Shown one piece after another: positions 1,960 to 20,433 of a DNA stretch of 21,250 nucleotides. The notes beneath the pieces were generated by a model. It did not search any database. It was not told the DNA's origin and saw only the letters and a list, made by a program, of their open reading frames with translations. This stretch comes from Pseudomonadota bacterium. Lineage in GTDB: Bacteria > Pseudomonadota > Gammaproteobacteria > Steroidobacterales > Steroidobacteraceae. The number at the start of each line of letters is the position of its first letter. Within the stretch, counting starts at the first letter, position 1. A program made the translations under genes and the position numbers. Where the stretch lies: positions 1 to 21,250 of the forward strand of contig JAJZLX010000708.1 in the NCBI GenBank assembly GCA_021850555.1, written 5' to 3'.

Positions 1960-1978
1960 CTGCACCACCCCTCGATGT

Positions 1979-2713
1979 TCAGAGCTGCGCGACGAGCGAG
2001 ACGAACGCTCGCGACTGCGGATGCGGCGGCGATGTGCTGCGACCGGCTCGCGCAAGCACCGGTCCCGGGGTCCAAAGGCCCAGTGCCATGCGCGCGAGTG
2101 CCGCGCCGAGCGCCTCGCCCCATGAATTCGCCGGCCCGATCGGCGCGATGCGGCGGGTGCGCCGTGACCCGTAACCGGCGCCCTGTGATCCCTCGCAGCA
2201 ATCCTCCTGCACCAGCCAGTCTCCGCCGTCATGCGCGAGCGCGCCGGCGAGCGCGGCGCCGACGCCGCTCGAGCGTGCGGTCGTCGTGAATGTGTGGCAG
2301 GAGGCGGCACAGGAGCTGGAGACTCCCCGATGCCTGCCGCGGCAGACAACGGCGCCGTGGAGGCCGCGCACCGACTCCTCGAGGAGTATGTGCGTGAAAT
2401 CGTCCATGAGGCCGATCATGGCAAGGCCCCGATGGGAGTCGAGGATTGCGTGCAAGCGGGCGGTATCGGTGATGAGGTCGCTGCCGAGAGCGACCTCGGC
2501 GGGCGGCGCACCGAGGTGGCGGCGCCCGGCCTCGGCCGCGGACAGCGCGAATGCCTCATCGCCCGAAGACCGCAGGAGCACGAAGCGGCTCGGGGCGACT
2601 GTCGGAACAGAAGCCGCTTCACTGTCTGCCGGCAGAAGGGCCGACGAATGGGCGAAGGCAAACACGCCGACGGTCATCGTCGCCTGCAGAAATTCGCGCC
2701 GATCCGCGCTCAC
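1979..2713 (-). CDS. Tat-signal protein of unknown function between cytochrome and flavoprotein genes (PchX-like position)
   Basis: A 244-residue protein that I do not recognise by sequence. It begins with a probable twin-arginine signal: DRREFLQ at residues 4-10 followed by a hydrophobic stretch, with an Ala-rich end near residue 34, so export to the periplasm in folded form is likely. The GTG start at 2713 is chosen because it places the RR motif at the N terminus and overlaps the cytochrome stop in a GTGA, a sign of translational coupling. The stop is 19 bases before the flavoprotein ATG. The middle contains several cysteines (a CAASCH stretch and a Cys-Cys pair). p-Cresol methylhydroxylase operons of Pseudomonas, as I recall them, have an uncharacterised gene (pchX) in exactly this place, so a role in assembly or maturation of the flavocytochrome is plausible but is inferred from position only. 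Confidence 0.75.
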   Translation of the reverse strand: MSADRREFLQATMTVGVFAFAHSSALLPADSEAASVPTVAPSRFVLLRSSGDEAFALSAAEAGRRHLGAPPAEVALGSDLITDTARLHAILDSHRGLAMIGLMDDFTHILLEESVRGLHGAVVCRGRHRGVSSSCAASCHTFTTTARSSGVGAALAGALAHDGGDWLVQEDCCEGSQGAGYGSRRTRRIAPIGPANSWGEALGAALARMALGLWTPGPVLARAGRSTSPPHPQSRAFVSLVAQL

Positions 2714-3036
2714 GGATGCGCTCCGGCCGGATGCTTTTCCGGCGCCGTCCTGTCGAGCCAGACGATAAGCGCTGCGAGCTCCGCGTGACTGATCGCCGCA
2801 GGATTGAAAGCGATCATCGCGCCATCGCCATGCCGCACGACGAATCGAATCTGCGCCGGCGGGTAGTGCGAGCCGCGGATCGGCGGGGCGATGCCGGTGT
2901 CGTGGCAGAAGTGGCAGGTCGCAGCGTAGACGCGGGCGGGGTCGGGCGCGGGTGCTGCGGCCTGTGCGAGGCGCACGCCTGCGCCGATCAGACTCAAGGT
3001 GATCACGGCGGCGCAACGATTGGCGGAAGTGCGCAT
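2710..3036 (-). CDS. Small periplasmic cytochrome c, PchC-like electron acceptor subunit
   Basis: A 108-residue class I cytochrome c. Residues 1-26 form a Sec signal peptide (basic start, hydrophobic core, AQA before the likely cleavage). The haem attachment motif CHFCH is at residues 41-45, and Met74 (GAMIAF) is the likely axial ligand. The length and layout match the cytochrome subunit of p-cresol methylhydroxylase, which takes electrons from the flavoprotein in the periplasm. The gene is first in a three-gene unit and overlaps the next gene by four bases. The ATG at 3036 is preferred because it opens a proper signal peptide, with a GAGG-type site upstream; the longer frame to 3150 begins with non-signal sequence. 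A conserved palindrome lies 132 bases upstream. Confidence 0.88.
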   Translation of the reverse strand: MRTSANRCAAVITLSLIGAGVRLAQAAAPAPDPARVYAATCHFCHDTGIAPPIRGSHYPPAQIRFVVRHGDGAMIAFNPAAISHAELAALIVWLDRTAPEKHPAGAHP

Positions 3037-3372
3037 GTCCTGGTCCTCGTCTCGGGGCGAAGCGGGTTCACAGGGTCCCGGCCGCACGACTCGAGCGTGC
3101 TCGCGCGGCCGGCAAGGCGGATGTCGGTCGACGCGAAATGAGTAGAGCAAACTCCGGGCGGCAAAAAACCACCCTTTCGGGTGGAACGGAGGTCCCCGCC
3201 GGGCACCGAGCTCGTTGACCGCTGACAGGCGTTGGCGTACCGGCGGAGCGCTCGCGATCGCAGGGCATCCGGCGATGCATCGGGCGGAGATGGCAATGCC
3301 GAATCGCAGCCCGATGCGCGGAGAATCTACCCGGAGGCGCTCGGGCGCGGGTCCCTCGCCCGGCGCGGCCGC
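3037..3372. other. Intergenic region between the cytochrome unit and the CMD-ending operon
   Basis: 336 bases with no convincing gene. It contains the leader of the cytochrome unit (3037-3168), the palindrome at 3169-3184 and about 190 bases of GC-rich sequence beyond the stop of the minus-strand CMD gene. Short open frames here have no recognisable product. Confidence 0.5.
3169..3184 (-). promoter_or_regulatory. Palindrome A, candidate operator of the LuxR/LAL regulator
   Basis: On the strand of the downstream cytochrome gene this reads CCACCC-GAAA-GGGTGG, with TT before and TTTTTT after. It is one of three copies in the window sharing both 6-base arms, the central AA and the flanks. It lies 132 bases before the cytochrome start codon. 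In this copy the hairpin with a GAAA loop plus six Ts also resembles an intrinsic terminator for the minus-strand operon ending at 3373; both roles are possible. Confidence 0.6.
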
Positions 3373-3687
3373 TCAGGCGAAGACTTCCTTGGCGACCGCG
3401 ATGGCGGTCATCGCGGTCGGCCAGCCCGAATAGAATGCCAGATGAGTGATCGTCTCGATCAGCTCGGCCTTCGTGAGGCCGTTATCCAGAGCCTTTCGCA
3501 GATGACCCAGAAGCTGCTCCGGGCGGTTGAGCGCGATCAGCGCGCTCACCGTGGCGAGGCTTCGGTCACGTTTTGACAGCTCCGGTCGCTCCCAGACATC
3601 ACCGAACAGCACCTGCTCGGTGAGATCCACCAGCTTCGGTGCGAGGTCGCCGATCAATTTCCGGGCGGGTGAAGGCTCGCTGCTCAT
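3373..3687 (-). CDS. Carboxymuconolactone decarboxylase-fold protein (short, AhpD-superfamily)
   Basis: A 104-residue all-helical protein of the CMD/AhpD superfamily. The C-terminal half (HLRKALDNGLTKAEL, then HLAFYSGWPTAM) is the family signature also seen in PcaC-type decarboxylases. There is no CxxC motif, so it is not an AhpD-type peroxidase. The likely chemistry is a decarboxylation or lactone/dienelactone-type reaction, but the family is functionally mixed. The ATG at 3687 is chosen for its AGGAG site 8 bases upstream. It is the last gene of the minus-strand operon, 105 bases after the esterase-like gene. It is only distantly related to the second CMD gene at 15863. Confidence 0.85.
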   Translation of the reverse strand: MSSEPSPARKLIGDLAPKLVDLTEQVLFGDVWERPELSKRDRSLATVSALIALNRPEQLLGHLRKALDNGLTKAELIETITHLAFYSGWPTAMTAIAVAKEVFA

Positions 3688-3792
3688 GGGGTTCGCTCCT
3701 GGGGAGATTCGGCCCGGCTGCACGCCGGGCCGTTCACGAAGATGAGGGCCGTCCGCCGAGGGAAATCGGGTCTCTTCGGCGACGGCGCCCGC

Positions 3793-4950
3793 TCAATCCG
3801 CCGCCGAAATCACGATGTCCGACAGCTTCTGGAAGCGCTCGATGTTGGCGTTGCTCTCCATGACCCCCGCCGAGAGGCAGACGAACGTCAGGTCGCGCTC
3901 CGGGTCGACCCAGAAGAGCGTGGTGCCCGCGCCGTAGTTGCCGAAGGTGCGCGGCGAGGCGAGCGTGCCGAACATGTGATGGCAGATCGCGGTGCCGCGC
4001 AGGGAAAACCCCAGGCCGATGTACGCCGGCGCGGGCGCCCAGCCGCGCTCCCTGCCGCGCTCGACGTACAACTCGTTCGGCTTCTCGCCTGTCCAGTTGC
4101 GGGTCGCGAGCTCGAGTGTCGCCGGCGACAGTATGCGCGCGCCATCGAGAGTGCCGCCCTGCCGCAGCATCTCCGCAAAGCGGAACATGTCCGGGACCGT
4201 CGATGCGATTCCCACCCACGGCATCTCGGCGTGCTCCTCCTCGAAGGCGCCGTTCGGGCCGAGGTTGCTGTGGCCGCGATGTCCGATCGGATAGTTGCCG
4301 CGGAAGTCCGGTACGACGTGGCGCCGCTTCAGATCGGCGCGCAGGCCGACCGAGGTGTCGGCCATTTTCAGCGGGTCGAGCAGGTCCTGCTGGATGATCT
4401 GCCGGTAGCTGCGGCGCCTCGGATCGATGCGCCTCAGGGCCTCGCCGAGCAGCACGTGGTTGACCAGCGGCGCGTAGGCCACGTGCTCGCCCGGCGGCTC
4501 GGACGGTTTGACGACCTCGATGACCGCCGCGACCATCTCATCGAGCACGTCGATGTACATGCCGGGTTTCAATTCGAAAATGATCGGAAAGCCCGCCTGG
4601 TGCGACAGCAGGTGGAAGACCTCGATCTTCTCGCGGCCGTATCCGCTGAACTCGGGGATGATATCGGAAATGCGCGAGGTGAGGGCGAGGCGGCCGCGCT
4701 CGATCGCCCGCAGTATCAGGATGTTCGTGAAGGCTTTGGTGACCGAGAAGATGCTGAAGACGGAATCGCCGGCGAGCGCAAGGCTCTGTTGCCTGTCCGC
4801 CGAGCCGATCGTTACATCCAGCGCCACCTTTCCGCCGCGCGCCACCTTGATCACGGCGCCGTGGTAAAGCCCTGCGGCAATGTCCTCTCTGACGACCGCC
4901 TGCAGATCCTCGAGACGGCTCGAATCCATGTTTGCTGCACCCATTGTCAT
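3793..4950 (-). CDS. Beta-lactamase-family serine hydrolase (class C-like esterase)
   Basis: A 385-residue serine hydrolase of the class C beta-lactamase / EstB esterase family. The nucleophile motif is SVTK at residues 69-72. The following HLLSHQAG block (about 113-120) is a family hallmark, and Tyr159 in the YAPLVNH stretch is the candidate catalytic Tyr. No signal peptide is visible, so it should act in the cytoplasm. Such proteins usually cleave esters rather than beta-lactams. In this operon it most likely cleaves an ester or lactone intermediate. The ATG at 4950 has GGAGG five bases further upstream; a second ATG at 4929 is possible. It follows the P450 gene by 19 bases. Confidence 0.88.
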   Translation of the reverse strand: MTMGAANMDSSRLEDLQAVVREDIAAGLYHGAVIKVARGGKVALDVTIGSADRQQSLALAGDSVFSIFSVTKAFTNILILRAIERGRLALTSRISDIIPEFSGYGREKIEVFHLLSHQAGFPIIFELKPGMYIDVLDEMVAAVIEVVKPSEPPGEHVAYAPLVNHVLLGEALRRIDPRRRSYRQIIQQDLLDPLKMADTSVGLRADLKRRHVVPDFRGNYPIGHRGHSNLGPNGAFEEEHAEMPWVGIASTVPDMFRFAEMLRQGGTLDGARILSPATLELATRNWTGEKPNELYVERGRERGWAPAPAYIGLGFSLRGTAICHHMFGTLASPRTFGNYGAGTTLFWVDPERDLTFVCLSAGVMESNANIERFQKLSDIVISAAD

Positions 4951-4969
4951 GGTCTCCTCCGGGAACTGA

Positions 4970-6157
4970 TCATTCGAAATACGCGCGGATCGGCAGGCGC
5001 TCGGGACCGTGACCGACCGTGGTCATCCACGGCTTCGGCTCGCCGGCGGACTCGAAGCGAGTGATCGCGCGGGCCACGGCTTCGAGAAGCGCCTCGGCCT
5101 CGAGCAGAGCCAGCACACGCCCGACGCAGGCGTGCAGGCCGTAGCCGAAGCCGAGACTGTGAAGATTGTTCCTGCGGACGTCGAACCGGTCCGGCTCGCG
5201 CCACTGCCTGGGGTCACGGTTGGCGGCAGCGAACATCAGGCCGCAGCGGGTGCCTTGCGGTATGATGTAGCCGTCGATTTCGACCTCGCGCGCCGCGATC
5301 CGGCCGGCCATGCGCGAGGGGGAATCCCAGCGCAGGCTCTCCTCGAACGCCGCCCGGACCAGCGAGGGCTCCGTGCGCACCACGGCGTACTGATCCGGGA
5401 ACTCGCAGAATGCGCGGATGGTGTTGGCCAGGGTCATCACGGTGGTATCCGCCGCTGCCGCCAACAGCGTGCCGACCAGCAGCTTCGCCTCCTCCCGGCT
5501 GACCTCGCCCCGGTCGGCGGCCTCGTACATCGCCATGCCGAGGCTGCCGGCGGCCAGGTTGGCGCGCTCACAGCTCTGGTCCGCCCACTTCAGGACTTCT
5601 TCGGTGTCCTGCATGACCTCGTAGAACAGCTCGTTCATCGGACCCATCGTGGCCCAGACCATGTTGCCGAACGTATACAGGTGCTCGCGCCCTTGCCGCT
5701 GCAGGCCGAGCAGATCCGGCAGCACCTTGTAGACGAACGGCTGCGTCAGGTCGGCGACGGCGTCGAGCGGCTCATCGCGAAGCGCCTTTTCCCTGAGGCG
5801 CGCGACCACGGCATCCGCCTCCGCGCGAAACGCCTGCGCCATCTTCGCCAGGGCGGAGCGCGACAAAGCGTTGGCGACCACGGCGCGCACGCGTGTATGT
5901 TTCGGCGGATCATCGGTGAGCAGCACTTCCGGTCGCACGGATTTCGGATCATGCCAGGGGCGGGAAGTCGAGGAGAACGTCTTCCAGTCCTTGAGCCCGG
6001 AAGCCACATGCTCAAAGCGTGCGAGCATCAGTACATCATCGTCGGGCAGCCGTACAACCGGCGCGAGCTCGCGCAACCGGTCGTCTACGGCGCGCGCATT
6101 GCGCACCGACTCGCGGCTGAACGGATCGACGTCGAACTCGGGGATCGGTCGGCTCAT
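4970..6157 (-). CDS. Cytochrome P450, CYP199-like
   Basis: A 395-residue soluble bacterial P450. Visible motifs are the I-helix AAADTT (234-239) with the Asp237-Thr238 proton-relay pair, ExxR at 273-276 and the haem loop FGYGLHACVG (337-346) with Cys344 as thiolate ligand. Segments such as GREHL followed by MGPMNEL, and CERANLAAGSLG, closely resemble CYP199A enzymes. Those demethylate or hydroxylate para-substituted benzoates such as 4-methoxybenzoate. That similarity suggests aryl-ether demethylation or para-side-chain oxidation, but the family assignment is from memory. No ferredoxin or reductase gene is nearby. The start is 3 bases after the SDR stop and lacks a strong ribosome site, suggesting coupled translation. 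Confidence 0.9.
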   Translation of the reverse strand: MSRPIPEFDVDPFSRESVRNARAVDDRLRELAPVVRLPDDDVLMLARFEHVASGLKDWKTFSSTSRPWHDPKSVRPEVLLTDDPPKHTRVRAVVANALSRSALAKMAQAFRAEADAVVARLREKALRDEPLDAVADLTQPFVYKVLPDLLGLQRQGREHLYTFGNMVWATMGPMNELFYEVMQDTEEVLKWADQSCERANLAAGSLGMAMYEAADRGEVSREEAKLLVGTLLAAAADTTVMTLANTIRAFCEFPDQYAVVRTEPSLVRAAFEESLRWDSPSRMAGRIAAREVEIDGYIIPQGTRCGLMFAAANRDPRQWREPDRFDVRRNNLHSLGFGYGLHACVGRVLALLEAEALLEAVARAITRFESAGEPKPWMTTVGHGPERLPIRAYFE

Positions 6158-6160
6158 GAT

Positions 6161-6922
<762 letters not shown>

Positions 6923-6929
6923 GACGATG

Positions 6930-7808
6930 CTACTCCGTCAGCAGCTTCCATGCCGCGCCGTCGCGGACGATTCGGCCGGCGGTGGGGCCCGGGAAATGGC
7001 TGCCGATCACCAGGGTCGGCTTCTCGGCGAAACGGGCGATGAACTCGCGGCGGGTCCGCAAGGCCTGCTCCTTGTCCATGTCGAAATTGCCGGGCCTGTC
7101 CGGCAGCGCGAGCTGGATGGGGTGATGCATCATGTCGCCTGTGATCACCGCTTCCTCGCCGCCCGAGCGAATCAGCACGCTCACGTGGCCCGGCGTGTGT
7201 CCCGGCGTCGGGATCAGCGACACCTCGTCGGTGATCCGGTAGTCCGGGTCGATGAAGTCCACCAGGCCGGCCTCCATCACCGGATCGATCGAGTCGGCGA
7301 GGTGGGCCATGTGATGATAGCCTCCGGTATCGCGCAGATGCTTCCAGTGCTGCCATTCCCGGCGCCCGAAGAGATAGCGGGCCTGCGGGAAGGTCGGTAC
7401 CCATCGGCCGTCGAGGAGGTGCGTATTCCAGCCCACGTGGTCGAAATGCAGATGTGTGCACAGGACCGTGGTCACTTCCTGCGGAGGGAAGCCGGCGACC
7501 TGCAGGTCATCGAGAAAGGTGGTGTGGAGGTTGGAGAAAATCTCGTATTCGCGCTGGCGGTCGGCGCCGATGCAGGTGTCGATCATGACGGTCTTGCCGC
7601 GTGATCGCAGCACGAACGCCTGAAAGTTGATGATCATGCGGCCGTCCGCGGTGGCGAAATGCGGCCGCAGCCAGGCGATTTGCTGCAGCAGCTGCGGCGT
7701 GGCGCCCGCGAGCAGCACGGCGATATCGTCTTCCAGCCTATCGACCTCGACGATCCTCGCCACATCGACTTCGCCAATTCTCCAATGTTTGATGGTCTCG
7801 GTTGTCAT
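6930..7808 (-). CDS. Metallo-beta-lactamase-fold hydrolase
   Basis: A 292-residue MBL-fold enzyme. The metal-binding motif HLHFDH is at 119-124, followed by PGHTPGH, GDMMHHP and a late GSHFPGP. This arrangement is typical of the AHL-lactonase/AttM-like branch of the superfamily. It has no signal peptide. The ATG shares one base with the TAA stop of the GMC oxidoreductase (TAATG), so translation is probably coupled. A lactone or ester substrate made in this pathway is likely but unproven. The second operon has its own MBL gene, which is only a distant relative. Confidence 0.88.
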   Translation of the reverse strand: MTTETIKHWRIGEVDVARIVEVDRLEDDIAVLLAGATPQLLQQIAWLRPHFATADGRMIINFQAFVLRSRGKTVMIDTCIGADRQREYEIFSNLHTTFLDDLQVAGFPPQEVTTVLCTHLHFDHVGWNTHLLDGRWVPTFPQARYLFGRREWQHWKHLRDTGGYHHMAHLADSIDPVMEAGLVDFIDPDYRITDEVSLIPTPGHTPGHVSVLIRSGGEEAVITGDMMHHPIQLALPDRPGNFDMDKEQALRTRREFIARFAEKPTLVIGSHFPGPTAGRIVRDGAAWKLLTE

Positions 7809-9484
7809 TAAGGCTCCTCTGCAGGATCCGGAAATGCGGCGGGCGGACGCTCGGTTACGAAGGCCGGCGGCGGCTTGCGTCCGCGTATCAGGTCCGCGGC
7901 CTTCTCCGCGATCATGATGACGGGCGCGTTGGTGTTGCCGCCGACGATGCTGGGGAACACGGAGGCGTCGACGACGCGCAACGACCGCACTCCGTGAACC
8001 CGAAGCTCTGCGTCGACGACGGCGCCCGGGTCGGGGCCCATGCGGCAGGTGCCGACGGGGTGGTGTACCGTGCTGGCGGTGCGCCGCAGGTAATCGATCA
8101 GTTCCTCATCGCTTTGCGCCCCGGGGCCGGGTGCGACTTCCGTTGCCCGATAGCGCGCGAACGCGGATGTCGCAAACAGGCGGCGGGAAAGCCTCAAGCC
8201 GCGCAGCAATGGGGCGATGTCCGCGTCGTCGCCGAGGAGGTTTGCCTCGATGATCGGCGGACTGCGAGGGTCGGCGTCGGCGAGGGTGATCCGGCCGCGG
8301 CTGCGCGGGTACAGGCCCACGGTGCTGAGTGCGAACCCGTGGCCGAGAGGCAGGGGGAAGGTGCCGCGGTTGCGCCGCGCGGGCTGGAAGACGATCTGCA
8401 GGTCGGGCCGGTCGAGACCGGGGGCGCTGCGGATGAATGCGGTCGACTCGAAGACGTTGCTCGCGAGCGGGCCGCTGCGGGCGAGCGCATATTGCAGGAC
8501 ATTGATGACGGAGCGGTGCAGGGTGCGCAGCGACAGACCGTAGGAGTCCGTGTTGCGCGTTTCCATGAGTACGGCCACGGCCAGATGGTCGTGATAGCCG
8601 GCGCCAACGCCCGGCAGGTGATGGCGGACCGCGGTCCCGTGCCGGCGGAGCTCCTCGGCGTCGCCGATTCCGGAGAGCATCAGCAGCTGGGGCGTCTGGA
8701 TCGTGCCGGCGCAGAGGATGACCTCTTGGGAGGCCTGGATGCGCCGCGGGGCCCCGTCACGCAGGAGCTCGACCCCGCGCGCGCGCGCCGCTTCCACGAT
8801 CACCCGGGTGACGGGGGTCTCGGTGAGAACCGTCAGGTTTCGGCGTGCCCGGGCCGGGCGCAGAAAGGCGACTGCACTGGAGTCGCGGCGGCCGTTGCGG
8901 ATGGTGCCCTGGCGCGGACCATAGCCTTCCGGATGCGGGCCGGTGAAATCCTCGCAGGGCTGAAAGCCCCCGATGGACGCGAACGCGTCCCGGAAGGCCG
9001 CGTTCAATGGATTGGGATGTCGAATGTGCTCGACATTGATCGGTCCGCCCTGGCCGTGATAAGGCGAGCCCAGGTAGTCGGGGTTGTTCTCCGAACGCAG
9101 GAAGTACGGCAGCACTTCGCGCCAGCTCCAGCCCGGATTGCCTGCCGCCGCCCAGTCATCGTAGTCGCGCGGTTGTCCGCGGAAATACACCATGCCGTTG
9201 ATCGAGCCGGAGCCGCCGAGGACCTTCCCGCGGGGCAGGGGGATGCGCCGGCTCGCAAGCTGCGGTTGAGGCGCGGTCGTGAAGCGCCAGTTGGTCGCCG
9301 GCCGGGCAATGGCGGCTCCCACGAGAGCCGGTACGTGGAAGAACGGGTGACGATCGGGCGGGCCGGCTTCCACGAGGCAGACCCGTGTGCCGGGGTCTTC
9401 GGACAGCCGGGCGGCGAGCACGCAGCCGGCCGTACCCGCCCCGACAATCACGTAATCAAAGAGTTCTGCGGGCTTGGTGCTCAT
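7808..9484 (-). CDS. GMC-family FAD oxidoreductase
   Basis: A 558-residue glucose-methanol-choline family flavoprotein. The N-terminal dinucleotide fold has GAGTAG at 15-20. The GMC signature follows (RGKVLGGSGSINGMVYFRG), then the second signature near AGTIQTPQLLMLSGIG. The C-terminal catalytic region HHPVGTCRMG and the closing GNTNAPVIMIAEKAADLI are intact. These enzymes oxidise alcohols, using a quinone or electron carrier or sometimes oxygen. The ATG at 9484 (MSTKPAELFDYVIVG) is used because the homology begins there; the longer frame to 9676 runs into the receptor gene. It is the second gene of the operon, 82 bases after the receptor stop. Confidence 0.92.
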   Translation of the reverse strand: MSTKPAELFDYVIVGAGTAGCVLAARLSEDPGTRVCLVEAGPPDRHPFFHVPALVGAAIARPATNWRFTTAPQPQLASRRIPLPRGKVLGGSGSINGMVYFRGQPRDYDDWAAAGNPGWSWREVLPYFLRSENNPDYLGSPYHGQGGPINVEHIRHPNPLNAAFRDAFASIGGFQPCEDFTGPHPEGYGPRQGTIRNGRRDSSAVAFLRPARARRNLTVLTETPVTRVIVEAARARGVELLRDGAPRRIQASQEVILCAGTIQTPQLLMLSGIGDAEELRRHGTAVRHHLPGVGAGYHDHLAVAVLMETRNTDSYGLSLRTLHRSVINVLQYALARSGPLASNVFESTAFIRSAPGLDRPDLQIVFQPARRNRGTFPLPLGHGFALSTVGLYPRSRGRITLADADPRSPPIIEANLLGDDADIAPLLRGLRLSRRLFATSAFARYRATEVAPGPGAQSDEELIDYLRRTASTVHHPVGTCRMGPDPGAVVDAELRVHGVRSLRVVDASVFPSIVGGNTNAPVIMIAEKAADLIRGRKPPPAFVTERPPAAFPDPAEEP

Positions 9485-9566
9485 GTCCGTGTGGCGATCG
9501 GGGCGGCGTCGGGTGCCAGGGTGCCGACGCCGCCGAAGGACCGTTCGATCTTCGTGCGCATGGTTT

Positions 9567-12248
9567 TCAATGCATCTGCACGCGCACGGTGGCGTACCAC
9601 TCCCGCGGAGGGTTGACATACCCGTTGATGAAGCCGGCGCCGTAGTTGACGACACCGGACGTGATGTAGCGGTCATTGATCAGGTTCGTGCCACCCACGG
9701 CGAGCTGATACCTGCCGCTTGGAGAAACGTAGTGGAGAGAGATATCGAGCATGTGCGTTACGGGTCGACGTATCTGCGGAGTGTTCAATGAATCGTTGAA
9801 CATGCTGGACGTGTAGGTGTAGACGGGAATCAAGCTGATGGTGGCACCGCTCGGCAGCCCGAAGGTGTACTCAGGATCGAGTGTAAATTTCCACTTGGGC
9901 GTCTGCGGCAGCTGGGCGTCGAGCGCGCTGCCCGGGCCCTTGATCGCGCAGATGGGCGGCCCGGCCGGACAGACGGTCGAGCCGTCCGGGAGAGCGTACT
10001 GCGGGAAGTTCGCGTTCGGACTCAACGAGGTGTAGTAAGCGTCGATGTACGAGGCTGAGCCGTTCAGCCGCAGCCCCGTATGGCCGACGAGCGACTCGAA
10101 CGAGAGTTCCGCGCCCTGGATCTTGGCGTTGCCCGCGTTGGTCAGCACCGGGGAGGTGCCGCGCTGCACATCCAGCTGGATGCCGTCGAAGTTCGTGTAG
10201 AAGGCGTCGGCATCGAGGATCAGGTGGTGTCCGAAAAGAGTGGTCTTGACGCCGGCGTCCCATGCCTTGGACGTTTCCGGGCCGTAGCGGGCCTGCGTCG
10301 GGCTCGCTGTGATCGCGGTGACTCTGGTGGTCCATCCGCCGGCCAGGAAGCCCTTGCTCCAGGTAACATAGGCCATGGTGTTCGGGGTGAAGTGGTACTG
10401 GACGCTGCCGGTGGGATCGAACACGTGCCAGGCCTGACTGTCCGGAGTATCGGGAGGGAAGTACAGGGTGTACGGCTGTCCGGTCAGCTGCGGTCCCAGC
10501 ACCGAACCGAACGGGAAGGAGTTGAGATCGCCCTGGCCGCCGATGAAGTAGGCCTGGGCGTCGGTGTAGCGGCCGCCGGCGATGAATTCCCAATGCCGGT
10601 TCAACTGATAATCCAGATGGAAGTAGGCGGCATAGTCCGTGTTTTCGATGTCGTTTCCCGCGCCGTCATAGATGTCCAGCAGGCCCGCGAACGGCACGAA
10701 GTCGTGCACGTAGCCGGATTCCTTGAAATAGAACAGGCCGCCGACGTAGTGCAACCGCCTGTCGAGCGCGTCGCCGAGGAGCCTGAACTCCTGGGAAACC
10801 TGGTATTGATGCTGCAGGTCGATGACGTACGATATCGTCTCGGGCGTGCCGCCCACGTCGGTGCCGACGTTCCAACGGGTCTGGCGGTAGGCGGTGATGG
10901 ACTTCAGGTGCACGTTATGCGTCAGCCTGTAGTCGCCCGTGAGCGCGAAGCCGAAGATGTTGCTGCGGGCGAAATCCGGTCCCTGGGCATAGGTTGTATC
11001 GTAATTGCCCGTGTTGGCCGCGGCGTAGTCGTAGTAGATCCGCGGCTGGCTCGTGCCGAGATAGGCCGTGCCGGGATGCTCGTTGATATTGAACGGTCCC
11101 GGGGGGCCGCCGACATAGCCCGCCCCGAGCAGCGGCGAGCCGCCGATCGAGATTCCGGGCACGTGGCCGCGCGGCTGGGCGCAGGTGCCGGCGAACAGGG
11201 CATTGACGGGTGTGCCGACCGGAGGCCCACCGTCCGCCGCGATTGCCGCGGGCAGCGTCGAGGCATTGTTGCTGATGCAGAGATTGTAGAGCGTCGAGAA
11301 AGTGGATGCGCTCAGGTTGCCGCTGAAGGTGGCAAGATCGACGAGCGGCAGCGCGGTCTGGCTCTCCCGCGTCCAGTCTCCTTCCAGGGTCATTCTGAGC
11401 CGATCGGAGGCGAGCCACAGCAGCTTGCCGCGCATTGCGACCACGCCCGTGCCGCCGAACCGGTTCGAGCTCCGGTACCCCGGACTCGGCCAGGCTGTCG
11501 CCGGCGTGACGACGAACGGCGTCTCGCCGTAGGGGGAGTTGGTCGGGTACGGGATGACGCGCTGGTAGCCCTGCTGGTTCTGCGAGGAGAAGGTGATGCT
11601 CGAGAGCAGCTCATGCTTGATGATCGGAATATCGGCGCTGAAGGCGATGTCGCGGCGGTTGAGGCTGCCGCCGGTGGCCTGTGCGACGAAAGAGGGCTTC
11701 TCGCCGGGCTCGCGGGTGGTGATGCTGATGGCCCCGGCGATGGTGTTCGCGCCGAACAGCGTTCCCTGGGGGCCCTTCAGGATGGAGATGTTCTGCACGT
11801 CGAGCAGATTTACGTTTGCGCCTATCGTGCGCGCGTAGTAAACGCCGTCTACGTAGACGCCGACCGCGGGGTTGATGTTGAATGCGAAGTCGGACTGGCC
11901 GATGCCGCGAATCGATGCGGACAGGACCGAGCTGTCGCCGGAGAACGGCGCGCCAGCGGTCAGGGTAACCCCGGGCGTGAGGTTGCTCAGCTGGGCAAGG
12001 CTCGTGATATTCTGATTGCGTAACGTCTCGGGCGTGAAGGTCGTGATGGCGATGGGCACGTTCTGCACGTTCTGGCGGCGGTACTGCGCGGTGACCACAA
12101 CTTCGCGCAGCTCTGCCAGTGGATGCGGTCTGTTTTCGGAGCGCGCTTGCGCAGCGGCGGCAGCGTAGGCGCCGGAGAGGCAATAGCCGCCGAGTGACAG
12201 CAGCACGAGCGGCGCGAATGCCTTGCGTTTGACGGTTATGATGTTCAT
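9567..12248 (-). CDS. TonB-dependent outer-membrane receptor
   Basis: An 893-residue TonB-dependent receptor, expected to import a bulky substrate across the outer membrane using TonB energy. Residues 1 to about 30 form a signal peptide with a basic start (KRK) and Ala-rich end. A TonB-box-like stretch (REVVVTAQ) leads into the plug, with typical blocks (NVPIAITTF; GPQGTLFGANTIAGAISI). The rest is beta-barrel with alternating aromatic residues, ending AVGGTNLINDRY and REWYATVRVQMH. The final residue is His rather than the usual Phe or Trp. The start has a strong GAGGGGG site 7 bases before ATG. The receptor leads the long minus-strand operon, and palindrome B lies 135 bases upstream. It resembles the receptors that accompany aromatic or terpenoid catabolic genes in sphingomonads rather than siderophore systems. 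Confidence 0.93.
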   Translation of the reverse strand: MNIITVKRKAFAPLVLLSLGGYCLSGAYAAAAAQARSENRPHPLAELREVVVTAQYRRQNVQNVPIAITTFTPETLRNQNITSLAQLSNLTPGVTLTAGAPFSGDSSVLSASIRGIGQSDFAFNINPAVGVYVDGVYYARTIGANVNLLDVQNISILKGPQGTLFGANTIAGAISITTREPGEKPSFVAQATGGSLNRRDIAFSADIPIIKHELLSSITFSSQNQQGYQRVIPYPTNSPYGETPFVVTPATAWPSPGYRSSNRFGGTGVVAMRGKLLWLASDRLRMTLEGDWTRESQTALPLVDLATFSGNLSASTFSTLYNLCISNNASTLPAAIAADGGPPVGTPVNALFAGTCAQPRGHVPGISIGGSPLLGAGYVGGPPGPFNINEHPGTAYLGTSQPRIYYDYAAANTGNYDTTYAQGPDFARSNIFGFALTGDYRLTHNVHLKSITAYRQTRWNVGTDVGGTPETISYVIDLQHQYQVSQEFRLLGDALDRRLHYVGGLFYFKESGYVHDFVPFAGLLDIYDGAGNDIENTDYAAYFHLDYQLNRHWEFIAGGRYTDAQAYFIGGQGDLNSFPFGSVLGPQLTGQPYTLYFPPDTPDSQAWHVFDPTGSVQYHFTPNTMAYVTWSKGFLAGGWTTRVTAITASPTQARYGPETSKAWDAGVKTTLFGHHLILDADAFYTNFDGIQLDVQRGTSPVLTNAGNAKIQGAELSFESLVGHTGLRLNGSASYIDAYYTSLSPNANFPQYALPDGSTVCPAGPPICAIKGPGSALDAQLPQTPKWKFTLDPEYTFGLPSGATISLIPVYTYTSSMFNDSLNTPQIRRPVTHMLDISLHYVSPSGRYQLAVGGTNLINDRYITSGVVNYGAGFINGYVNPPREWYATVRVQMH

Positions 12249-12371
12249 GTTTTTTCCCCCTCGTACCAGCTTGGGCTAGTTTTTGGCCCCCGGCCGGCGC
12301 CTGTCGCTCTCAATCCGGCAAGAATCGGCGCTGCGAGGCGGGCCAAGGTGCAGGAAGGGAATCAAATCGGC

Positions 12372-12399
12372 GGGTGGAAGAAACCACCCTTTGGGGTGG
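12372..12399 (-). promoter_or_regulatory. Palindrome B with an extra half-site, candidate operator
   Basis: Positions 12384-12399 read, on the receptor strand, CCACCC-CAAA-GGGTGG with TT on both sides, matching palindromes A and C. A third half-site (GGGTGG at 12372-12377 on the plus strand) follows 6 bases closer to the receptor gene, giving three arms in a row. The site lies 135 bases before the receptor ATG, between divergent genes. No upstream gene on this strand needs terminating here, so an operator role is the better reading. Confidence 0.65.
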
Positions 12400-12469
12400 A
12401 AATGCCGCCGGCGCTGCGGGGCCGGCCTTGTCTGTTTAAGGGCGCACAGGCAGCCTAGGGCCTGTACAC

Positions 12470-12480
12470 CCACCCCTACA
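12470..12480 (+). promoter_or_regulatory. Degenerate half-site before the small gene
   Basis: CCACCCCTA at 12470-12478 repeats the left arm and first spacer bases of palindrome C. The right arm is lost (ACACCGGG in place of AAGGGTGG). It ends 16 bases before the small ORF start. This could be a weak operator or chance; only the left arm supports it. Confidence 0.25.
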
Positions 12481-12496
12481 CCGGGAACATTGCGTC

Positions 12497-12706
12497 ATGA
12501 GACTGTTTTCCCAAGACCGGACCGAGCTGCTGCGGGTCGAAGGGCTCGATAAGCGCGGCAACGAGCTCGTGATCCGCGGCCAGGCTTTCGGATCGATGCC
12601 GATTACGGCGATGCTGGGGCCACAGGAGGTGCGCAAGTTCCTGAAGTTGCTCAACTTTAGGCTGGTGCTATTCCTGCTCTCCCTGCCGTTCCGGCGGGCG
12701 CGCTAG
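12497..12706 (+). CDS. Small conserved-looking protein, function unknown
   Basis: A 69-residue protein. The first 45 residues are soluble and have a strand-like pattern (LLRVEGLDKRGNELVIRGQAF then MPITAMLGPQEV). The end is a short hydrophobic segment (about 51-65, LLNFRLVLFLLSLPF) capped by RRAR, suggesting a tail anchor at the inner membrane. I have the impression of similar short proteins beside TonB receptors in catabolic clusters, but cannot name a family. It is divergent from the receptor and precedes the regulator gene on the same strand by 284 bases. The ribosome site is weak. Codon use looks like that of its neighbours, and no larger gene occupies the opposite strand. Confidence 0.65.
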   Translation: MRLFSQDRTELLRVEGLDKRGNELVIRGQAFGSMPITAMLGPQEVRKFLKLLNFRLVLFLLSLPFRRAR

Positions 12707-12773
12707 CCGCCGCCCCATGCCCGGTCGAGGCGCGAAGAGGGGATGCGGGCGCCCGCAGCGCGCGGCCGACGTC

Positions 12774-12804
12774 TTGTCTTGCTTGGGAAAGTCCGGCTTA
12801 TAAT
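12774..12804 (+). promoter_or_regulatory. Sigma-70-type promoter of the regulator gene
   Basis: A perfect -10 hexamer TATAAT at 12799-12804 stands out in GC-rich sequence. The best -35 is TTGTCT at 12774-12779 with a 19-base spacer, slightly longer than ideal. Transcription would begin near 12811, leaving a leader of about 180 bases before the regulator ATG at 12991. The -10 is sure by sight; the -35 choice is less so. Confidence 0.6.
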
Positions 12805-12909
12805 TTGAGCGCGGTGCCGCTTTGCGGCCGGTCTGCCGGTTGTAAGTCGCCCGCTCGCGATGGGGGGGAATCGGATGACAACTGAGCTTCCGCTGCCTGC
12901 AGAGACCAT

Positions 12910-12960
12910 CCGCGAGTTCTCCAGCGGTCGCGGCCGTACGCCGGACCTAGGAACTCGCGG
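12910..12960 (+). other. Large stem-loop in the regulator leader
   Basis: CCGCGAGTTC at 12910-12919 pairs perfectly with GAACTCGCGG at 12951-12960. Inside, GGTC (12926-12929) pairs with GACC (12944-12947) and CGGC (12931-12934) with GCCG (12940-12943) around a CGTAC loop, with one bulged G. That gives 18 base pairs in two blocks, ending 30 bases before the regulator ATG. It could control translation of the regulator or mark a mobile repeat; it has no T tract. Confidence 0.6.
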
Positions 12961-12983
12961 CACAGAGGCACAGAGGCGCAGAG
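12961..12983 (+). repeat. Short tandem repeat CACAGAGG
   Basis: Two perfect copies of CACAGAGG (12961-12968, 12969-12976) are followed by a degenerate third (CGCAGAG). They sit directly between the leader stem and the regulator start. Similar CACAGAG-type intergenic tracts are, to my recollection, scattered in many unrelated bacterial genomes. Confidence 0.55.
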
Positions 12984-12990
12984 CAGGATC

Positions 12991-15771
12991 ATGATCGAGC
13001 CGAGTCCCGTCGCGCTCGAGGACCCGGTCTGTCCGATCCGATCGTCGTCGGTCAACAGGACCAAGCTGCGGCCGCCTTCTTGCAAAGGTCCTCTGGTCGA
13101 GCGCCCCCATCTCCTGCGGCGCCTGCAGGGGCGGGCCCGGCCGAGGCTGGCTCTCATCCAGGCGCCTGCGGGCTTCGGCAAGACGAGTCTGCTTTCCCAG
13201 TGCTTCCATGCGGCGCGCGCCGACGGTAAGGCCGCATGGCTGAGTCTGGATGCAACCGACAACGACTGCGCTCGTTTCCTCCAGCATCTGCTCGCGGCCC
13301 TCGCGACGGTCGGCGTGCAGCTCGGCTCGGCGATCGAGGAGGCTTACGGCTCGAGTGCCGGCCTTCCGCCGCTGATGGCGAGCGATCTGTTGAGCAATGC
13401 AGTCGCCGATCTCGATGAGGACGTCGTCGTCTGCGTGGATGACTTTCACGTGCTGACGGATACGGCCATCGAGCAGTTCATGGCAGGTCTGCTTCAGGGG
13501 CCGGGCTCTCGTCTTTTGTGGCTCATCGCTACGCGAGCTACGCCGGCCGGATTGCCCCTGAGCCGGCTGCGGATGCGGGGGGAGCTCGTGGAGCTTTGCG
13601 CCCGCGATCTCAAATTCACGACCGAGGAGTCACGGCGTTTCTTCGACTCCGCAGCCGGGGTTGATCTCGCGCCGGCGATGGTTGAGCTGGTCAACGAGCG
13701 CGCGGAGGGATGGGTCGCGGGCCTGCAAATGGCCTCGCTCAGCCTGGCGGGCACGGACGATCCGGCGGTCACGATCCGGCGCTTCTCGGGCATGAGCCGT
13801 AAAGTGTCGGAGTTTTTGTATTCGGAGGTGCTGGCCAGGCTGGACAAGCAGACCTGTCGCTTCCTGCTCGATACCGCCGTGCTCACGCGCATGAGCACGG
13901 AGCTGTGCAATCACGTGACGCGGCGCTGGGATGCTCGCGCGCGGCTCGATGAGCTCGAAGCGCTGAACCTGTTCATCTTCTCGCTGGATGACGAGCGCAG
14001 CTGGTATCGATATCACCAACTGTTTGCGGAATTTCTCGAGCAGCGGCTGCGCGAGCTCGAGCCCGAGCGCGCCCGCGAGCTGCACGAGCGCGCGGCCGAG
14101 TGGCTCGAGCAGAATGGACAGGGGGTCGAGGCGATCGATCACGCCTTGAAAGCGCGCTCATTCCGCCGGGCGGCCCGTCTGCTCGATGAGCTTGGGTTGT
14201 ACGAGCAGGGCCAGATGGTGTTGCAGGAGCGGCTGGTCGTGCAGATACCGCAAGAGGTTCTCGATGAATTTCCCAATTTGAAACTCGAGCGTCACTGGGG
14301 CTGGCAGTCGGACTGGGAGTTCACGAAATGCCGGCGTGACATCAACCAGTTCAAGCGTCTCGAGCGCGAGTGGCGCAGCGGCGCGCGCCCTGTGCCCCAG
14401 CGCGTGGATCTTGATTACCTCGCGGCAAAGATCGCGCATCGGGAGCTGATGCTGTCCTTTGTGACCGATAACATGGACGCGGCGCGCAGGCTGTGCGAGC
14501 GATGGCTCGCCGCGGGCCATCCGGTCGACGCCTACATGGAGCTCTCGGCCAAAGACGCTCTGAGGGCGGCGCGCCGGGAGCACTATGCCTGCGAGGACAC
14601 GGGGCTGGCGTCTGCGGCACTTTACGAAGCCTACCAAGAGGCCCGGTTCAGCTTCGGGGCGATCTTCCAGGACTGCATCAGCGGCTTGTCGTTTCTGATG
14701 CAAGGGGATGCCGTGCGCGCCCGGGAGGTTTACGAGAGGGCGCTCGAGACGGCGGTGGCGCTGCACGGGCGGCTTTCCCGGCTCGCGTCCATGCCGGCGC
14801 TGCTGCTCGCCGAGGTTCACTACGAGCAGGGCGAGCTGCAGCATGCCCAAGCGCTCGTGGCCGCTTATTTGGGCGTGGCGCACGGACTCGGGTATGTGGA
14901 CAAGCTGATCGCCGGATTCATGACGAAGTCGCGCCTGGAGTTCCTCGAGGGAAGGCTCGAGGCCGCGCAGTGCACTCTCGATGAGGCCGAGCGGTACGCG
15001 GCGAGGACCGGCTTCGAGCGACTGCGGGCGCATGCGCTCGCCGAGCGCATGCGCCAGCTCCTGCTCGCGGAGAAGCGCGACGAGGTGCTCGAGCTGGCGC
15101 GCGCCTCCGGGCTCATGGGCAGCAGCATTCGCTACCAGCCGCACGAGGCGGCGACCACGCGCGATGAGCTCATGGCGATCGCGTGGTCACGCGCCGCCTT
15201 TGCGCGCGGGGAGCTCGACGCACCGATCCGGCTGCTGAAGAACTGGCACCAGTTCACGATGGAGCGCGGTTGTTACCGCTCCTCGGTGCGCCTGGCCGTC
15301 GAGCTGGTGAGGCTGTTGCATGCTCGCGGCGATCTCGGCGCGGCCTGCCGGCACCTGTGCGAGGCGCTCGGGCAGGCCCGGGCGGGCGGGTTTCTGCGGG
15401 TATTCCTCGACGGAGGCGAGGAGGTGCGCGAGGTTCTGAACGCGGCCTTGTCGGGCTCGACCGCGTTTCGCCCGGCCGAGCTGGCCTACGCACACGTGCT
15501 TCGCTCGGCCTTCGGCAGCGCGCGGCGCTGCCGACCGGAGCCGCGAAGCAGTGGTCCCCACCGTCAAAAGCAGCACGTTGGACTCAATCGCCGGGAGCGA
15601 GACATCCTGGAGCTTGCCGCCGGTGATGTGCCCAATCGCGAGATTGCCAGGCGCCTGGCACTCTCGGAGAACACCGTCAAGTGGTACTGGAAGGGCATCT
15701 TCACCAAGCTCGACGCGCGGCGGCGGCTGCAGGCGATCAACCGCGCGCGGGCCGCCGGCCTCATTTTCTGA
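12991..15771 (+). CDS. LuxR-family transcriptional activator of the MalT/LAL type
   Basis: A 926-residue large ATP-binding LuxR regulator. Such proteins bind an inducer and ATP, oligomerise, and activate promoters. An N-terminal STAND-type NTPase has Walker A APAGFGKT at 58-65 and Walker B VVVCVDD at 145-151. The YRYHQLFAEFL block (MalT-like) ends this part. A long helical, TPR-like region follows, which would sense the inducer. The C terminus (about 865-926) is a LuxR helix-turn-helix (LNRRERDILELAAG, then NREIARRLALSENTVKWY). The ATG at 12991 is preceded closely by AGGA. The gene sits between the two catabolic arms and has its own promoter. The three CCACCC-N4-GGGTGG palindromes in front of the surrounding operons are its most likely targets. 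The inducer is unknown, presumably the substrate or a pathway intermediate. Confidence 0.93.
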   Translation: MIEPSPVALEDPVCPIRSSSVNRTKLRPPSCKGPLVERPHLLRRLQGRARPRLALIQAPAGFGKTSLLSQCFHAARADGKAAWLSLDATDNDCARFLQHLLAALATVGVQLGSAIEEAYGSSAGLPPLMASDLLSNAVADLDEDVVVCVDDFHVLTDTAIEQFMAGLLQGPGSRLLWLIATRATPAGLPLSRLRMRGELVELCARDLKFTTEESRRFFDSAAGVDLAPAMVELVNERAEGWVAGLQMASLSLAGTDDPAVTIRRFSGMSRKVSEFLYSEVLARLDKQTCRFLLDTAVLTRMSTELCNHVTRRWDARARLDELEALNLFIFSLDDERSWYRYHQLFAEFLEQRLRELEPERARELHERAAEWLEQNGQGVEAIDHALKARSFRRAARLLDELGLYEQGQMVLQERLVVQIPQEVLDEFPNLKLERHWGWQSDWEFTKCRRDINQFKRLEREWRSGARPVPQRVDLDYLAAKIAHRELMLSFVTDNMDAARRLCERWLAAGHPVDAYMELSAKDALRAARREHYACEDTGLASAALYEAYQEARFSFGAIFQDCISGLSFLMQGDAVRAREVYERALETAVALHGRLSRLASMPALLLAEVHYEQGELQHAQALVAAYLGVAHGLGYVDKLIAGFMTKSRLEFLEGRLEAAQCTLDEAERYAARTGFERLRAHALAERMRQLLLAEKRDEVLELARASGLMGSSIRYQPHEAATTRDELMAIAWSRAAFARGELDAPIRLLKNWHQFTMERGCYRSSVRLAVELVRLLHARGDLGAACRHLCEALGQARAGGFLRVFLDGGEEVREVLNAALSGSTAFRPAELAYAHVLRSAFGSARRCRPEPRSSGPHRQKQHVGLNRRERDILELAAGDVPNREIARRLALSENTVKWYWKGIFTKLDARRRLQAINRARAAGLIF

Positions 15772-15783
15772 TCCGATGCACTT

Positions 15784-15799
15784 CCACCCCTAAGGGTGG
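15784..15799 (+). promoter_or_regulatory. Palindrome C, candidate operator of the plus-strand operon
   Basis: CCACCC-CTAA-GGGTGG with TT on both sides, in the same orientation relative to its downstream gene as palindromes A and B. It lies 63 bases before the CMD start codon. A TATGTT at 15823-15828, 23 bases beyond the palindrome, is a plausible -10, which would put the site near the -35 as expected for a LuxR activator. It also lies 12 bases after the regulator stop codon and could form a short hairpin followed by TTCTTC. Confidence 0.65.
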
Positions 15800-15862
15800 T
15801 TCTTCGCAGGTGGAGCCTGATTTATGTTACCACGGGTTCGAGGCAAAGAAGGTGCCAAAGCC

Positions 15863-16252
15863 ATGAGCGATGAAACTCGAAAGCAGCTGCACGATCTGGG
15901 GTTGTCGATCCGGCGTCGAGTGCTCGGCAACGAATACGTCGATCGGGCGCTGGCGGGCGCTACCGACTTCAACCGGCCATTTCATGCGCTGCTCAACGAG
16001 TACTGCTGGGGCGCAGGCTGGGGCGGGGAAGGGCTCTCGATGAAAGAGCGCAGCATGATCACCCTGGCGATGCTGACCGCGCTCGGACGCACTCAGGAAA
16101 TCGAGACGCATACGCGCGGAGCGCTCAACAACGGACTGACCCCCGAGCAGATCGCCGCGGTGCTGACACATGCCGCGATCTACTGCGGGGTGCCGGCCGC
16201 GGTCGACGGCTTCCGGGCGGCGGGCAAGGTGCTCTCCGGAAATGCCGGATGA
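15863..16252 (+). CDS. 4-carboxymuconolactone decarboxylase-like protein (PcaC-like)
   Basis: A 129-residue CMD-family protein. The core LGRTQEIETHTRGALNNGLTP, followed by THAAIYCGVPAAVDGFRAA, closely follows PcaC-type gamma-carboxymuconolactone decarboxylases. PcaC decarboxylates the lactone to an enol-lactone in protocatechuate breakdown. No other protocatechuate genes are nearby, so the true substrate may be a different lactone or beta-keto acid. It has no CxxC. The ATG at 15863 is preferred; an ATG at 15824 would add 13 poorly matching residues, and the relic at 109 also begins at this position. It is the first gene of the plus-strand operon and overlaps the next by 11 bases. Confidence 0.88.
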   Translation: MSDETRKQLHDLGLSIRRRVLGNEYVDRALAGATDFNRPFHALLNEYCWGAGWGGEGLSMKERSMITLAMLTALGRTQEIETHTRGALNNGLTPEQIAAVLTHAAIYCGVPAAVDGFRAAGKVLSGNAG

Positions 16253-17153
16253 ATTCCTGCCCCCCGAGCGGGTGGGCTTCATCGGACTGGGGAACATGGG
16301 CTCTCCCATGGCCCGCCGCCTGCGCGAGGCCGGCTACACACTCACGGTTCTGGACGCCAATGGCGAGGCCGTCGACCGCTTCCGCAGCCGGGTAGCGTGC
16401 TCGGTTGAAACCACGCCTGAGGCGCTCGGCCGGGCCTGCCGGGTGGTCGTCACAATGCTGCCCGACGGCCGCGCCGTCCGTCAGGTGATTCTCGGCCGCG
16501 GGGGGGTGGCAGCCGGACTCGCACCGGGGGCGCTCGTCATCGACATGAGCTCTTGCGCGCCGAGCGGGACGCGCGCTCTGGCAGAGGATCTGGCCGCCTC
16601 CGGTATCGTCCTGATCGATGCGCCGGTGTCGGGCGGAGTGGCGCGGGCGCAGGAGGGCAGGCTCGCCATCATGGCCGGCGGGGACCCGGCGGCCCTGGCC
16701 CGCTGCGGCCGCCTGTTCGCAGCGCTCGGGCAGGTGTTCGCCACCGGACCGTCCGGCTCGGGGCATGCGATGAAAGCCCTGAACAATTACCTCTCGGCGA
16801 TCGCGCTCGGCGCCGCGGGAGAGGCGATCATCGCCGGCGAGCGCTTCGGCATCGATCCTGCGACCATGATCCGCATCCTGAACAGCTCCACGGGCCGCAA
16901 TACGGCCACCGAGCAGAAGTTTCCGGCTTTCGTGCTTCCGCGGACTTTCAATTCTGGATTCGCCCTCGGCCTGATGGCGAAGGACCTGCGAATCGCACTC
17001 GGACTGGCGCGCGAGACGGGGGCGCCGACGCTGCTGCTGGAAAGCTGCACGAGGCTCTGGGAGCGGGCAGAGCAGCAGCTGGGCTTCGGTGCGGACAACA
17101 CCGAGGTCGTGAGGTACCTCGAGTCGCTGCCTGCGGGAGGGGCGGGTGGTTGA
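16242..17153 (+). CDS. 3-hydroxyisobutyrate dehydrogenase-like NAD(P) oxidoreductase
   Basis: A 303-residue beta-hydroxyacid dehydrogenase. The Rossmann motif GFIGLGNMG is at 12-20, the substrate-binding DAPVSGG at 126-132, and the catalytic Lys178 sits in GSGHAMKALNN. These enzymes oxidise beta-hydroxyacids or reduce the corresponding semialdehydes. The ATG at 16242 lies inside the end of the CMD gene (11-base overlap) and places the Rossmann motif at the usual distance from the N terminus. The next gene overlaps its end by 8 bases, so the first three genes of this operon are probably translated in a coupled way. Confidence 0.9.
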   Translation: MPDEFLPPERVGFIGLGNMGSPMARRLREAGYTLTVLDANGEAVDRFRSRVACSVETTPEALGRACRVVVTMLPDGRAVRQVILGRGGVAAGLAPGALVIDMSSCAPSGTRALAEDLAASGIVLIDAPVSGGVARAQEGRLAIMAGGDPAALARCGRLFAALGQVFATGPSGSGHAMKALNNYLSAIALGAAGEAIIAGERFGIDPATMIRILNSSTGRNTATEQKFPAFVLPRTFNSGFALGLMAKDLRIALGLARETGAPTLLLESCTRLWERAEQQLGFGADNTEVVRYLESLPAGGAGG

Positions 17154-17955
17154 GCCTCGGCCCTACGAGCTCTATGCCATCCGCTACGCAAGTGCCCGGC
17201 GCAGCGCCGCCGAGGTCTTCGTGGGCGGCGATCCGCACGATGCGGGTCTGCAGATGGACTACTTCGTCTGGTTGGCACGCAATCGAGAGCGCACCGTCGT
17301 CATCGATACGGGTTTCGATGAGGCTGCAGCGCGCCGCAGGGGACGCGAGCTCACTCGCCGCCCGGAGGAAAGCCTGAGGATGCTCGGCGTGGATCCCGGA
17401 GCGGTCGAGAATGTAATCCTGACGCATCTGCATTACGATCACGCCGGCAATCTCGACTTGTTTCCGCGGGCAACCTTTCACGTTCAGGACAGGGAGATCG
17501 CCTACGCGACCGGCCGTTACATGGCCGAGCCGTTCTGCGCGCAGGCATACGACCTCGAGCATGTCCTGAACGCGGTCCGCTTGACGTATGCCGGACGGAT
17601 CCGGTATCACGATTGTACGGACGAGGAGGTTGCGCCGGGCATCAGCGTTCACCACGTCGGCGGCCACACGCGCGGCCTGCAGGTGGTGCGCGTCTGGACG
17701 CAGATCGGGTGGGTGGTGCTCGCCTCGGACGCCATGCATTTTCTGGCGAACAGGGATTCGTGCCGGCCATTTCCCATCCTCGCCGACGCGACGGAAATGA
17801 TCGACGGCTGGAAGCGGATCCGGCGCCTTGCGGACGCTGCTGACTACATCGTCCCGGGTCATGACCCACTGGTCATGAGCCGGTATCGGCCGCCGCGGCC
17901 ACAGCTCGCGGGGATCGTGGCCCGGCTGGATGAGGAGCCGAGCCGGCCCGGCTGA
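17146..17955 (+). CDS. Metallo-beta-lactamase-fold lactonase-like hydrolase (AttM/AiiB-like)
   Basis: A 269-residue MBL-fold protein. Metal ligands are in HLHYDH (94-99), with HHVGGHTRG, the SDAMH block and a closing PGHDP. The N-terminal pattern MDYFVWLARNRERTVVIDTGF is typical of the N-acyl-homoserine-lactonase-like branch. A role in quorum quenching is possible, but its place between a CMD-like decarboxylase and dehydrogenases makes a catabolic lactone the more likely substrate. The start is GTG at 17146, overlapping the previous gene by 8 bases, with GGGAGG a few bases upstream. Confidence 0.87.
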   Translation: MVEPRPYELYAIRYASARRSAAEVFVGGDPHDAGLQMDYFVWLARNRERTVVIDTGFDEAAARRRGRELTRRPEESLRMLGVDPGAVENVILTHLHYDHAGNLDLFPRATFHVQDREIAYATGRYMAEPFCAQAYDLEHVLNAVRLTYAGRIRYHDCTDEEVAPGISVHHVGGHTRGLQVVRVWTQIGWVVLASDAMHFLANRDSCRPFPILADATEMIDGWKRIRRLADAADYIVPGHDPLVMSRYRPPRPQLAGIVARLDEEPSRPG

Positions 17956-17984
17956 ATGTGTATCGCAGAGCGATCATAGGGGGA

Positions 17985-19556: not shown

Positions 19557-19585
19557 GGGCTCGTCCACCGGCATAGGGCGGAGAG

Positions 19586-20368: not shown

Positions 20369-20433
20369 GTCCTCAAACCGGCGGTTAGAAATCGCATATG
20401 CGGGTTCACTTGTGAGTTTGGGGAGGCGGTGAG

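Follow-up and report, generated by a model that had tools for sequence, protein, structure and literature searches.

A 21,250-base stretch of contig JAJZLX010000708.1 (assembly GCA_021850555.1), from a gammaproteobacterium of the Steroidobacteraceae and hereafter called the window, carries three copies of the palindrome CCACCC-N4-GGGTGG (sites A, B and C), and we propose that they serve as operators for the LAL/MalT-type regulator whose gene lies between B and C. From sequence comparison, we place the probability of this reading at roughly 0.73 overall, with a higher value for C and B and a lower one for A. If correct, it would reveal which half-site an unstudied group of MalT-like regulators recognises, a single signal would tie together three operons of an aromatic-degradation cluster, and ligand and pathway would be open to a simple reporter test. 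The features on which the argument rests are the following:

3141..3146, − strand: weak −10-like hexamer TCTACT, 23 bases past site A (predicted position)
3169..3184, − strand: site A, CCACCCGAAAGGGTGG followed by TTTTTT, terminator-like in a consensus scan
12372..12377 (GGGTGG) and 12470..12475 (CCACCC), no strand assigned: further half-sites flanking B, which may be chance or perhaps an array
12384..12399, no strand assigned: site B, a putative operator separating the TonB operon (−) from the divergent unit with the 69-aa open reading frame (ORF) and the LAL gene (+)
12799..12804, + strand: TATAAT, perhaps a separate promoter for the LAL gene that follows
12991..15771, + strand: LAL/MalT-type regulator of 926 aa, with an AAA/MalT N-terminal half, MalT-like TPR and a GerE helix-turn-helix (HTH) domain (Pfam)
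15784..15799, + strand: site C, CCACCCCTAAGGGTGG, not terminator-like in the scan
15823..15828, + strand: −10-like hexamer TATGTT, 24 bases past site C (predicted position)

Occurrence and position of the palindrome

The preliminary description of this DNA had listed three exact copies of the palindrome, and the window indeed holds exactly three, a number matched in none of 100 dinucleotide shuffles; all three are noncoding. Equally borne out were the spacers read towards the downstream gene (GAAA, CAAA and CTAA for A, B and C), the TT that precedes and the TT with pyrimidines that follows each copy, and the distances of 132, 135 and 63 bp to the ATG codons of the cytochrome c, TonB-dependent receptor and CMD genes, respectively. 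The further statement that the copies share one orientation holds for spacer and flanks but not for the palindrome itself, which is symmetric. By position the copies do precede three operons, but A and C also lie 3' of same-strand genes (188 bases past a CMD stop codon and 12 bases past the LAL stop codon, respectively), and B also faces a divergent unit, being placed 97 bp upstream of a conserved 69-aa ORF that had been overlooked, with the LAL gene beyond it.

The rarity of the motif had been overstated: the figure of one occurrence per 17 Mb presumes 50% G+C, and at the 66% of the window one occurrence is expected per 2.2 Mb, a difference of about 8-fold. Scanning the window with up to two mismatches gave one additional site (position 16260, one mismatch), which falls within the opening codons of the HIBADH-like ORF; chance alone would give 1.53 matches of this kind. 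As a post-hoc control, every perfect palindrome of the form 6-Nk-6 (k from 0 to 12) was counted in the window and in 2000 shuffles, using hand-drawn gene limits. The only family with three copies in the window was CCACCC-N4-GGGTGG; some family of at least three copies appeared in 235 of the 2000 shuffles and is thus not rare by itself, whereas a family with three fully noncoding copies appeared in two. The palindrome observation stands, with modest strength coming from the counting and more from the position of the copies. Third half-sites adjoining A and B were also considered, but their spacing is unequal (7 and 6) and they were judged likely to be chance.

Among 369 gammaproteobacterial genomes, the exact motif was present in 100, with about 145 copies by hand count and at most four per genome; the highest number was found in genome G331. 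Five of ten genomes encoding distant LAL relatives carry one or two exact copies, and six of these seven copies lie within ORFs, the seventh (L084) being terminator-like. No paper joining CCACCC, GGGTGG and LuxR was found in open PMC.

The regulator and its putative operators

The regulator has both the N-terminal P-loop ATPase and the C-terminal GerE HTH domain of its family: PF13191 scored 35.2 bits (cut-off 32.6), with GFGKTS in the sequence, and PF00196 scored 45.7 bits over residues 865–917 of 926. The N-terminal half resembles the MalT structure 8bob (E 1.5e-49) and the HTH domain resembles NarL (E 1.9e-6). The protein was not assigned as MalT itself, as its score of 323.4 bits against NCBIfam NF003420 is below the curated cut-off of 537. 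An alignment of 28 sequences, comprising the window protein and 27 of the 120 listed relatives, showed the motif T(V/I)KWYW in the HTH domain throughout despite overall identity falling to 46%, and similar operators are therefore expected within this KWYW group. Protein relatives with 82–91% identity exist, but one genome-contig scan gave none closer than 38%, and viral contigs gave none. In the genome samples (E cut-offs 1e-100 to 1e-150), relatives reached 35–39% at best and were found in 3 of 53, 0 of 369, 6 of 85, 0 of 5, 0 of 3, 0 of 9, 0 of 57 and 0 of 1 genomes. LAL relatives on plasmids were about 34% identical or less; two of them (L097 and L098) sit in aromatic-degradation regions, the former with no matching noncoding site and the latter with a 3-mismatch site only.

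In the proposed mechanism, a pathway ligand together with ATP would cause the regulator to oligomerise, and paired GerE domains would hold two GGGTGG half-sites (16 bp, a NarL-like 7-2-7 arrangement) centred near −43. The regulator would then recruit RNA polymerase at promoters with a poor −35 and a modest −10 element, switching on the TonB uptake and aromatic-degradation operons together. Binding, activation, ligand, oligomerisation and start sites are all steps that we infer; the mechanism itself, a local activator acting on repeated operators, is ordinary. The centre of site C would be at about −43.5 if the predicted −10 hexamer is right. With start sites that are predicted only, the combination of half-site and −10-like spacing fits for C, fits weakly for A and does not fit for B. 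A sigma-70 scan of positions 2000–21250 gave one match, compared with a mean of 1.9 in shuffled sequence.

Regulators with comparable operators have been described. For the MalT-like activator ACSP50_3915 of Actinoplanes sp. SE50/110, the element TCATCC-N5-GGATGA precedes 17 start sites in a single region, and its 3' end lies 34.4 ± 1.0 nt from them (PMC7567727). As proposed for the window, a LAL protein encoded inside the region that it activates uses one hexamer inverted repeat over −35 in front of several operons, and GGATGA resembles GGGTGG; the Actinoplanes system differs in its N5 spacer, its TCATCC/GGATGA arms, its 17 mapped and deletion-tested start sites, its response to maltose and the genes concerned. 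The MalT box of E. coli and Klebsiella, quoted in the same paper as GGGGA(T/G)GAGG, shares a G-rich half-site and a location near −35, in addition to the architecture of the protein, but MalT boxes stand in direct repeat (PMC6099782) and the arms in the window are inverted. NarL recognizes a 7-2-7 repeat and can activate from −44.5 (PMC7419079). The 16 bp of the palindrome correspond to this 16-bp inverted repeat for a GerE-type dimer, although NarL is a phosphorylated response regulator rather than a LAL protein and its base sequence is different. AlkS (alkanes, PMC8784404) and TpdR (tetramethylpyrazine, PMC6099782) are, like the window protein, LAL activators adjoining degradation genes with repeats near −35; the repeats are, however, a 20-bp inverted repeat for AlkS and suggested 15-nt direct repeats for TpdR.

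Related promoter elements were found near distant LAL relatives. In six loci from genomes with LAL relatives of 37–39% identity (L104, L105, L107, L108, L110 and L111), a Rieske oxygenase gene is located near the regulator; PF00355 and the vanillate O-demethylase domain PF19112 were both matched by the Rieske genes of L107, L110 and L003, and the remaining ones were recognised by their shared start rather than by Pfam. Alignment of the six Rieske upstream regions revealed the element TTCCAACCTTCTCGGAGGGTGA and variants of it, ending 107–124 bp before the start codon. The hexamer TANNNT starts at base 24 past the 16-bp element in six of nine compared sites, including C, and in none or one at any other offset from 10 to 34; this count excludes L111 (same as L110), the other strand of B, and position 9895 of L003. 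The six cases are not independent, since L104 is nearly identical to L110 and the Rieske promoters are all homologous to one another. The excluded L003 site lies about 80 bp before the regulator start of that locus and has no TANNNT at 24, and a second L003 site (18094), 121 bp before the Rieske gene, has TATAGT at 23. Additionally, the longest inverted repeats preceding the Rieske genes of L104 (CCACCCGT-N7-ACGGGTGG) and L108 (CACCCACC-N5-GGTGGGTG) have arms resembling CCACCC/GGGTGG; that of L108 is a perfect 8-bp repeat, placed upstream of the proximal element and 193 bp ahead of the start codon. No inverted repeat of this kind was found upstream of the Rieske genes of L107 and L105.

Of the 42,454 window positions, a matrix built from the promoters of L104, L107, L108 and L105 ranked C first, B 7th and A 103rd (28th on the other strand). 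With L003, chosen for its likeness, added to the matrix, C, B and A ranked 1, 2 and 6. In the reverse test, a matrix from the window sites placed the L003 site first in its own locus, but in symmetrised form it ranked the sites of L104, L107, L108 and L105 only at 13, 6, 5 and 61. The earlier claim of LAL operators finds partial support. No other reading of B and C is better supported, because half-sites and geometry are similar to those described for MalT/NarL-type domains and a related element, with its −10-like hexamer at a consistent place, occurs in promoters near distant LAL relatives; the claim is weaker for A, given its matrix rank and terminator-like hairpin.

Counter-evidence and alternative explanations

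A number of observations weigh against the operator reading. Distant LAL relatives are represented by 79 loci, none of which contains the exact palindrome, and no related element was seen in L106 and L109; the distal repeat of L104 was not kept in L110 and L111. The matrix test was not blind, the L107 and L003 sites having first been found by motif likeness and the register set by hand. In its oriented form the reverse test ranked the L104, L107, L108 and L105 sites only 8, 16, 13 and 474, and in two loci without a LAL gene the best matches to the window matrix (12.4 in L117 and 12.9 in L118) fell within ORFs and reached the level of L003. Site A is poorly recognised by the independent matrix, and site B lacks a −10-like hexamer at 23–24. 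Finally, noncoding copies of the motif in other genomes are often terminator-like, and one of them, in L142, is identical to the 16-mer of site A, runs on into TTTTTT and stands 12 bases past a stop codon.

The last observation also speaks for an improbable alternative in which the copies are intrinsic terminators, A closing the TonB-to-CMD operon and C closing the LAL transcript, with the common stem a coincidence. In the consensus scan A and B, but not C, were terminator-like, and C directly follows the LAL gene. Of 30 motif copies in other genomes (L119–L147), 21 were in ORFs and nine were noncoding, five of the latter being terminator-like by eye (L122, L129, L130, L131 and L142). No LAL relatives were found in L119–L153, where the flanks covered in L119–L147 were up to 1.5 kb. 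However, terminators need no identical 6-bp stems, and the left side of the stem carries TT in A, B and C as opposed to A-runs in L129, L130, L131 and L142. Site B, in spite of its terminator-like scan result, follows no gene recognised on the − strand, and when 40 nt of A and B were folded the minimum-energy structure was another hairpin than that of the palindrome. Site A, the least certain of the three, may be an operator, a terminator or both, and C, a putative operator, is perhaps also the LAL terminator.

It is less probable still that the sites are operators of a different regulator encoded outside the window. The LAL gene seemingly has its own TATAAT with no palindrome beside it, as would suit such a regulator, but the half-sites are appropriate for MalT-type domains, a related element is found near LAL relatives, and none of the 21 window ORFs scanned with Pfam encodes a transcription regulator other than the LAL protein. 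A leader RNA switch, in which the 5' leaders of the three operons would form either the stem or a competing hairpin of GGGUGG and a downstream CCGCCC or CCACCC, agrees with the downstream hairpin favoured in the folds of A and B and with the like orientation of spacers and flanks, but is highly improbable considering that the partner sequence is absent after C, that Rfam 15 at gathering score had no match across the 21,250 bases, that start sites would be required upstream of the stems, and that the stems are imperfect in the element near LAL relatives.

Genes of the three operons

The operons that would be under the control of the regulator, and the small ORF facing site B, comprise the following:

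415..2349, − strand: flavoprotein of the p-cresol methylhydroxylase/vanillyl-alcohol oxidase family (1dii, E 2.5e-125)
about 1979–2700, − strand: ORF lying between the flavoprotein and cytochrome c genes; its start is twin-arginine-like (DRREFLQATMTVGVFAFA) and Pfam gave no match
2710..3036, − strand: cytochrome c, first gene after A (PF13442)
3373..9676, − strand: rest of the B operon, encoding a GMC oxidoreductase, MBL-fold hydrolase, SDR, CYP199-like P450, PF00144 hydrolase and CMD (Pfam)
9567..12248, − strand: TonB-dependent receptor, first gene after B (PF00593, PF07715)
12497..12706, + strand: conserved 69-aa ORF with no Pfam match and 26 relatives besides the window's own entry
15863..20853, + strand: C operon, encoding CMD, HIBADH-like, lactonase-like MBL, CrtO-like FAD, SDR and SnoaL-like proteins (Pfam/NCBIfam)

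The true start of the flavoprotein is probably near 1950, as the match to 1dii begins only at residue 134–144. Relatives of the flavoprotein share stretches with distant LAL relatives in L002 (4674–6212, 44%) and L098 (30697–32235, 42%). The P450 of the B operon was most similar to 2fr7 (E 3.2e-79) and also matched 4dnz, which is named CYP199A4.

The gene set suggests degradation of a methoxylated aromatic, the presumed substrate. In a more tentative proposal, to which we give somewhat less than an even chance, an uncharacterised LAL subfamily with the KWYW helix would read GGGTGR half-sites and run catabolic regulons directed at methoxylated aromatics of plant type. One switch would then govern, in the window, the cytochrome/flavoprotein unit, the CYP199-like P450, lactonase-like enzymes and TonB uptake, with the 69-aa protein in the divergent unit; near distant relatives, a vanillate-demethylase-like Rieske oxygenase would be the target. 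If this is true, a KWYW operator code would link convergent demethylation clusters across gammaproteobacteria.

A relative of the 69-aa ORF occurs together with a CrtO relative (45%) in L115. For four of the 26 relatives, the longest contigs (66187, 73827, 14463 and 19415 bases) are equal in length to those of four LAL relatives, and the two genes are therefore probably neighbours there. The 19.9-kb locus L117 has neither a LAL relative nor a palindrome site within two mismatches, which we count in favour of the operator reading. In this locus a 69-aa relative (9927–10130, − strand) comes directly after a CrtO-like gene (60%), and SDR (63%), GMC (56%) and SnoaL (58%) relatives are encoded in the same cluster. 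The arrangements in L117 and L115 suggest that the conserved 67–69-aa protein and the CrtO-like FAD oxidoreductase form a functional pair.

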